DNA of 64,000 nt, taken from assembly GCF_000223905.1 (NCBI RefSeq), contig NC_015948.1, forward strand, positions 2,728,001 through 2,792,000, written 5' to 3'. The notes under the pieces were generated by a model, which saw nothing but the letters and a program-made list of their open reading frames with translations, ran no database searches and had not been told where the DNA came from. A program made the translations under genes and the position numbers. The DNA is from Haloarcula hispanica ATCC 33960 (GTDB taxonomy: Archaea > Halobacteriota > Halobacteria > Halobacteriales > Haloarculaceae). The first letter of the stretch is position 1. Each line of letters begins with the position of its first letter. Shown here in pieces: positions 31,691 through 32,973 of this stretch.

Positions 31691-31763
31691 GCCCGGATGG
31701 TGTAGTGGCCCATCATACGACCCTGTCACGGTCGTGACGCGGGTTCAAATCCCGCTCCGGGCG
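31691..31763 (+). tRNA. tRNA-Asp (anticodon GTC), copy 1
   Basis: Complete 73-base tRNA. Acceptor stem GCCCGGA/TCCGGGC, anticodon arm CGACC-CTGTCAC-GGTCG with GTC, and T arm with GGTTCAAATCC. The discriminator is G, as expected for aspartate. No intron and no encoded CCA. Confidence 0.96.
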
Positions 31764-31814
31764 TTCCTATTGCGACCCAACTGACGAGCACCGTGCAGTG
31801 TGTGCTCGTAGGCT

Positions 31815-31887
31815 GCCCGGATGGTGTAGTGGCCCATCATACGACCCTGTCACGGTCGTGACGCGGGTTCAAATCCCGCTCCGGGCG
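31815..31887 (+). tRNA. tRNA-Asp (anticodon GTC), copy 2
   Basis: Base-for-base identical to copy 1, 51 bases downstream. The spacer is not duplicated and holds no TATA element, so the two tRNAs are probably processed from one transcript. Confidence 0.96.
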
Positions 31888-31906
31888 TTTCTCTGAATTT
31901 GACTCG

Positions 31907-31942: not shown

Positions 31943-32150
31943 TCCGTTCCGGGCCCCCGTTTCAGTGGCTGTCCAGCAAGCAGTAAACACCGCTTACTGG
32001 TCGATAAAACGGCATATACTGATATTACACGCCCGGCACAATAGCAGACGTCCGGGGAAGTGCCCCCTTGGCCTGTCATAGTGTCCGTCCACCGGGGTCG
32101 GACGTGCTATCACTTCACGCGGGATGGCATATGTTTTGTGTTGGTTGTAA

Positions 32151-32228
32151 TACTGTCGGCTGTAACTATTTCAAGATATTCGCCACCTCAGGGTGGCGAA
32201 ATTCTTCACAGACGTACAGCCGACAGTA
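32151..32228. mobile_element. 78-bp palindromic element, IS200/IS605- or MITE-like
   Basis: Perfect 14-bp terminal inverted repeats (TACTGTCGGCTGTA at 32151-32164 and its complement at 32215-32228) enclose a central 9-bp stem with four-base loop (TTCGCCACC-tcag-GGTGGCGAA, 32179-32200). The whole element could fold into one long hairpin. Subterminal hairpins are a feature of IS200/IS605 ends and of related non-autonomous elements known in haloarchaea. There is no coding capacity, so it would be a remnant or a MITE. Alternatively it is a transcription terminator. Confidence 0.5.
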
Positions 32229-32282
32229 TAAGCCGTGCGGATTAGCGGCTGCCAGTAAGCCGTGCGGATTAGCGGCTGCCAG
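32229..32282. repeat. Perfect 27-bp tandem duplication
   Basis: The unit TAAGCCGTGCGGATTAGCGG plus CTGCCAG occurs twice head to tail with no mismatch (32229-32255 and 32256-32282). The first copy begins at the exact outer edge of the palindromic element, which suggests a slippage or insertion-associated duplication. Confidence 0.85.
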
Positions 32283-32319: not shown

Positions 32320-32973
32320 ATGGAGGACGTGGATGGCGAGGAAATGCCCGGCGCGATCGTCGAGGCGTTCCTCGAACGCGAGGAGGGCGTCCGGGCGCTG
32401 CTTGAGGAACTGGAGAAGCTCACTATCGAGGGCCGTCACGAGGAGGTCCGCGACCGCGTTCGCAATCTGGCCGACAGCGACGAGTCAGTGTTTTACACCG
32501 TAGCGTTTAGCCTCACCAACTCCCGGCAGTTCTTTGGCGACGTGGAGGCACAACTGGACGTGACCGCCGCGGACCGGCTTCGGGACCTCGCCGACACGTT
32601 TCCCGCGCTGGCCGAGCCGTTCAACATCGTCCGAACGGAGCGGGCGGACGACCGCCTCAATCCGGTGACGGACACGAGCTACGCCGTGAGCTACCACCGC
32701 GGGGTCGAGTCGCCGATGGTGACATACAGCCCGCTGTCGGGCGAACAGGAGCTGTACGAGTCCCGCGGAACGCCAAGCGAGGTGTTGCGGGTGGCGTCTG
32801 ACCTCACGAGCGCGACGACCGACGCGCTGGACGTGGCGATGGATAACGACTACTCGGTCAACACGGAGGAGCTGAGCGCGCTCATCGACCGCCGTGAAGA
32901 ACTGGAGACGGAGCTGAGCAAGCTCCGGGACCAGCTCGACGAGCTTCGCCGGACGCCGGTCTCGGACGAGTAG
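32320..32973 (+). CDS. Acidic coiled-coil protein of unknown function, 217 aa
   Basis: The start at 32320 (MEDVDGEEMPGAIVEAFLER) is preferred because the frame upstream passes through the repeat region. The protein is soluble and acidic. Residues about 15-60 are helical (EGVRALLEELEKLTIEGRHE), the middle contains VTDTSYAVSYHRGVESPMVT, and residues about 180-210 form a short coiled coil (REELETELSKLRDQLDEL). I do not recognise the family. It is followed on the same strand by a small HTH regulator about 110 bases away. Confidence 0.75.
   Translation: MEDVDGEEMPGAIVEAFLEREEGVRALLEELEKLTIEGRHEEVRDRVRNLADSDESVFYTVAFSLTNSRQFFGDVEAQLDVTAADRLRDLADTFPALAEPFNIVRTERADDRLNPVTDTSYAVSYHRGVESPMVTYSPLSGEQELYESRGTPSEVLRVASDLTSATTDALDVAMDNDYSVNTEELSALIDRREELETELSKLRDQLDELRRTPVSDE

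Follow-up and report, generated by a model that had tools for sequence, protein, structure and literature searches.

A 78-bp haloarchaeal palindrome with TNA target duplications, probably a MITE of an IS630-family transposase

The window analyzed here, a stretch of 64,000 nucleotides from Haloarcula hispanica ATCC 33960, contains a palindromic sequence of 78 bp at 32151-32228, and the question raised by this locus is what kind of element it is and what moves it. The initial annotation had proposed the end of an IS200/IS605 element or a MITE derivative of one (PATE). Our sequence comparisons indicate that it is very probably a non-autonomous MITE on which an IS630-clade DDE transposase acts in trans, in a cut-and-paste manner.

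The coordinates and the length of 78 bp given in the initial annotation are exact to the base, and so are the perfect 14-bp inverted ends (32151-32164 on the forward strand and, as its perfect complement, 32215-32228 on the reverse strand; the remaining features of the element carry no strand) and the inner hairpin at 32179-32200, in which a 9-bp stem (32179-32187 with 32192-32200) encloses a 4-nt loop. The left half of a largely unpaired middle lies at 32165-32178. Over the whole palindrome, two 38-nt arms separated by 4 nt are 82% complementary; the single-stranded DNA fold reaches -28.2 kcal/mol versus -7.8 ± 2.4 in shuffles (z -8.55; none of the 200 shuffles folds as well), and the RNA fold of the element region gives a z of -9.36. 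A Rfam scan at a loose threshold returned no family for the hairpin. Two features absent from that annotation were found outside the ends: a 3-bp direct repeat, TAA, directly adjoining them (32148-32150 and 32229-32231), and a 27-bp tandem duplication from the right-hand repeat onward. The unit of the latter, TAAGCCGTGCGGATTAGCGGCTGCCAG, is doubled at 32229-32282, starting exactly with the right target repeat, and relatives carry one unit; this doubling is perhaps an event separate from the insertion of the MITE.

A single copy conserved only at this locus, the outcome named in the initial annotation as refuting its reading, was not what a BLASTN search for further copies gave. Matches of at least 56 bp occupy at least 21 places (L001-L021) in the own genome, across all three contigs. 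In 120 of 195 relatives there was some match at E ≤ 1, many of them weak, and with a strict pattern in which both 14-bp ends are fixed, 46 of the 195 genomes were positive, with up to 43 copies each and 0 control matches in any genome. A scan of 84,980 genomes returned at least 120 stretches, 119 of them from haloarchaea or Euryarchaeota by label and one from a Nitriliruptoraceae MAG among the matches listed, and yielded a catalogue of 123 distinct copies, likewise among the matches listed, of which 89 are 78 bp long. The copy on the contig assigned by label to a Nitriliruptoraceae bacterium MAG (L271), a MITE copy flanked by TA/TA, may represent a transfer to a bacterium or misbinning. There was no match to the element in the INPHARED phages, nor, with the strict pattern, in 2.9 million viral contigs. 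The family is thus short, has inverted ends, lacks a transposase gene and exists in many copies, as a MITE-like mobile element does, and it accounts for a repeat that ranks among the commonest short ones in Haloarcula and its relatives.

Insertion is accompanied by a 3-bp target duplication, TAA at the window copy and TNA in general. Congeneric relatives lack the element at the orthologous position, where they read ...GGTTG-TAA-G..., with a single TAA: at 10 of 13 loci the alignment runs cleanly across the junction and shows TAA, two have TAC and likewise no element, and one is unaligned there. For a second MITE (L010), which has a TGA duplication and whose insertion is common to G006, taken as Haloarcula amylolytica, the alignment spans the empty junction at 10 of 12 loci, with TGA in six. 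Within the own genome a TNA repeat flanks 15 of the 21 copies, as compared with 15 of 25,200 by chance. In the catalogue, among the matches listed, (i) identical TNA stands on both sides of 98 of the 123 copies (TCA 43, TGA 42, TTA 8, TAA 5), (ii) one copy has GCA/GCA and four have TA/TA only, (iii) 24 have unequal triplets, (iv) none shows a 4-bp flank identity, and (v) the target is preceded by C in 77 and followed by G in 72. Since the TAA of the window copy alone would fit a TA duplication too, it is the TCA and TGA copies that argue for 3 bp rather than TA.

These flanks bear on two other readings of the element. It could be 80 bp long (ATACTG...CAGTAT) with a 1-bp target duplication, and where the target is TNA the empty sites are compatible with both lengths; nevertheless, IS630-family relatives start at TACTG beside a TA duplication and the MITE copy L173 is flanked by GCA on either side, which is not expected from an 80-bp element, so that we regard this delimitation as very improbable. 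The assignment to IS200/IS605 ends or PATE derivatives would have the element moved single-stranded by a hairpin-reading TnpA HUH enzyme, in keeping with the nested hairpins, the lack of coding capacity and the haloarchaeal host. However, such elements are described as being without terminal inverted repeats and without target duplications (PMC3119063), whereas here the terminal repeats are perfect and the 3-bp duplication is seen against empty sites; besides, these ends were found on no IS other than an IS630 element. The assignment was therefore wrong, with a residual probability close to nil, although the MITE-like nature that it implied holds.

The IS630 element that we take as partner of the MITE is 1,070 bp long and was found by reading around single ends, as two identical copies in the own genome, on contigs C1 and C3. 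Of 13 places around single ends or diverged pairs inspected in this search, two are the IS and the rest are in part diverged 76-78-bp copies and in part likely chance matches, with no further IS with both ends among them. Its ends are TACTGTCGGCTGAAAA and TACTCACGGACATAAA, and its coding part is split into two frames that meet at a run of A, with the Pfam domains HTH_32/HTH_33 and DDE_3 (1e-32). Against the NCBIfam IS630 model NF033545 the C-terminal part scores 142.4 bits, the cut-off being 100, and the N-terminal part alone 91.7; with an HTH and the DDE transposase of this model the element belongs to the IS630 family, and copies 93% and 90% identical in two plasmid records are annotated by NCBI as one 1,022-bp IS630 transposase CDS. 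On C3 the copy lies between two TAA triplets, and four of four relatives examined are without this insertion.

The MITE has its end sequence, a subterminal motif and the TNA duplication in common with this IS of its own genome. TACTGTCGGCTG occurs at the MITE end and at one IS end, the identity of the outer ends extending over only about 12 bp, and further inside the MITE arm interiors match the interior of the IS right end at 15 of 24 positions (0 of 2000 shuffles), including a GTGAAGA-type motif at 32165-32178; there is no match to the interior of the IS left end (7 of 24, p about 0.46). On this alignment the simplest reading is that the MITE would consist of two IS right ends joined head to head, with the outer bases of the left end.

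It is also conceivable that the MITE is moved by another kind of DDE transposase, such as one of IS5/IS1031 type, and that the likeness to IS630 is convergent. IS1031-like elements make TNA duplications, and several MITE-rich genomes are without close IS630 kin: strict copies number 41 in G034, 34 in G052, 40 in G105 and 15 in G078, and at E ≤ 1e-5 the last three gave no transposase match and G034 only distant ones. Ends of the form TACTGNCGGCTRAA occur in MITE-rich genomes at six places in four of 14 genomes, and tblastn to the transposase was negative at the four places (in three genomes) outside G000. G034, G052, G105 and G078 may thus hold orphan MITEs, or else another enzyme, or one since lost, may act there. 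For the family as a whole we judge an enzyme of another type unlikely, given that the IS630 element itself makes TNA duplications and shares both the outer end and the inner motif with the MITE.

The duplication made by the IS630 relatives was then read from the flanks of 60 loci with relatives of the transposase: 18 copies have identical TNA, 10 have TA and 7 have unequal flanks (7 of 35 IS copies with mapped ends), and the remaining 25 loci have no clear end pair or duplicate another row. The end of L332 (TNA) was re-read by eye, L328 duplicates L096 and L316 was left out. A tree of 31 distinct sequences (15 TNA, 6 TA, 6 unequal and 4 outgroup) places the TNA rows in a clade with support 98/96, for which a single change suffices; all six unequal-flank rows fall inside this clade, and the ten TA copies belong to its sister lineages. 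Candidate residues by which 13 TNA sequences differ from 5 TA sequences include an S/P position three residues past the second catalytic Asp; the clade-diagnostic positions lie around 190-210 and 265 of the joined transposase. Both kinds occur in G058, in whose genus no empty site of the IS was found. L081, L111, L312, L313, L333 and L338 have TNA on both sides with a different middle base (e.g. TGA/TCA), for which recombination between copies is one explanation. L107 is a 1,114-bp IS630 relative with about 29 bp of identity between its two ends, its kin having short imperfect ends.

The strand-transfer stagger of IS630/Tc1-mariner elements is regarded as nearly fixed. One paper states that the whole ITm group duplicates TA, and the same paper gives TATA for Sailor (PMC8533490). 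The TNA clade departs from this TA duplication. Zator has a 3-bp duplication, so that, with the TATA of Sailor, other staggers exist in the wider ITm group; a TNA duplication in a clade of the IS630 family is nonetheless unusual. Searches of open-access text brought up no report of the 78-bp repeat, of IS630 elements that duplicate TNA or of MITEs in stop codons. With staggers of 2 and 3 bp among close relatives that coexist in G058, the family offers a natural pair for tracing the residues behind the stagger.

That the transposase of this clade moves the MITE is what we infer from the shared ends and duplication. It would bind the TACTG[T/C]CGGCTG ends and the subterminal motif, excise the element and join it to a T-N-A target (best C-T-[C/G]-A-G) with a 3-base stagger, and gap repair would leave TNA on both sides. 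Every TNA reads TGA or TAA on one strand and the duplication copies TNA, so that a stop codon is restored after insertion into it; such an insertion would rebuild the stop and add an 80-nt hairpin directly behind the gene.

Stop codons are indeed frequent targets. With a codon-usage gene caller, which on an annotated 35-kb stretch placed all 33 of its stops where NCBI has them and missed 3 of 36, we classified, among the matches listed, the 99 copies that show a TNA duplication and have 400 bp or more of flank. Among these matches, 42 of 99 copies have a called gene's stop codon as their target versus 4.9 expected from target-weighted TNA sites within the same loci, 51 an intergenic site, and 6 a site inside a gene versus 71.4 expected. 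Again among the matches listed, the excess holds against non-genic sites alone (p = 7e-10) and is modest against sites 0-30 nt past a stop (42 versus 10, p = 0.016). A control using all CTGA[GC] sites was superseded by this gene-caller comparison. Judged by eye on the NCBI annotation, the duplication falls exactly at the annotated stop in 6 of 12 copies; this applies to 4 of 9 copies on a Halomicrobium plasmid, one with the right triplet alone intact, and, in Haloarcula hispanica N601, to 2 of 3 copies on a plasmid of 405,815 bp. The IS lies at a stop codon in 1 of 17 cases and has no such excess when compared with the MITE (Fisher p = 0.003), several of the IS loci having just 300 bp of flank. 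Because the IS lacks the excess, retention after insertion, whether other insertions were lost or the hairpin is used, is likelier than targeting of stop codons by the transposase, which we put second. Insertions at stop codons would be harmless or mildly useful and would persist.

A further point is the pairing of the inner hairpin. In 81 distinct 78-bp copies, among the matches listed, positions 15-28 of the middle part are largely unpaired, and the pairs 29:50, 30:49, 33:46, 34:45 and 35:44 stay paired through two-sided changes, above all 300 shuffles, which ignore relatedness; the outer 14 pairs are fixed by the search pattern and uninformative in this respect. The pairing may thus have been kept by selection or, equally, by the palindrome serving as template for its own correction.

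The family might, then, be mainly a functional 3' element by now (a terminator or mRNA stabiliser), selected and immobile. The copies starting at stop codons, the 10 further copies at most 30 nt past one among the matches listed, the covarying inner pairs and the different behavior of the IS could all be understood in this way. However, close species differ in their insertions, the window copy lies away from any stop codon and has no T run behind its hairpin, and loss of harmful insertions may account for much of the pattern, 6 of 99 copies being inside genes among the matches listed. We consider this reading doubtful, with a minor share of the probability, and keep to a mobile MITE. It is tempting to speculate, and we do so tentatively, that one haloarchaeal IS630 clade changed its stagger once from 2 to 3 bases (TA to TNA), and that a palindromic MITE exploited targets in which the stop is rebuilt and so spread as ready-made 3' hairpins behind genes. 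A MITE that rebuilds stop codons on insertion illustrates a way for mobile DNA to supply gene 3' ends at little cost.

Among described archaeal elements, SM1 of Sulfolobus is about 80 bp in size. The Sulfolobus MITEs SM1-SM4 were compared by description: like the present family they are archaeal and reach tens of copies, but in the accessible part of the source we found no report of TNA or of stop codons for them (PMC10969869). The SMRs of Haloquadratum walsbyi (80-110 bp) are likewise haloarchaeal, short and multicopy with inverted ends, whereas their description has neither a target duplication nor a related transposon (PMC3119063), both of which set the 78-bp family apart. A further close system is RUP of Streptococcus pneumoniae, an IS630-Spn1 MITE of 107 bp and about 110 copies that inserts into TA; it too is a short non-coding palindrome with ends resembling those of an IS630-family IS (PMC2229807, PMC3049150), while the present family is archaeal, 78 bp long, duplicates TNA and is common at stop codons. 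ISY100, which duplicates TA in 34 of 39 products (PMC2170065), shares with the partner IS and other IS630/Tc1-mariner elements the HTH and DDE transposase, for which cut and paste is expected, but not the TNA duplication of its clade.

As to its surroundings, the window copy was correctly placed in a gene-free stretch near tRNAs: it is intergenic, with two tRNA-Asp genes on one side (31691-31763 and 31814-31888) and a 217-aa ORF on the other (32320-32973), the start of which lies 91 bp further on, and no tRNA forms part of it. It would represent an intergenic insertion between these tRNA genes and the conserved ORF, and there is no sign of its acting on the former. The tandem tRNA-Asp (GTC) genes are nearly identical in sequence. 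For the ORF, conserved throughout the genus, Pfam and NCBIfam give no family above cut-off. Between the tRNA-Asp genes and the ORF, and preceding the MITE, a conserved noncoding block (32054-32141) has no Rfam family above the gathering score and almost no covariation in its consensus fold; with its invariant CCTGTCATAG and ATA..T.TTGT motifs in 18 aligned sequences, it is a possible RNA or regulatory element.
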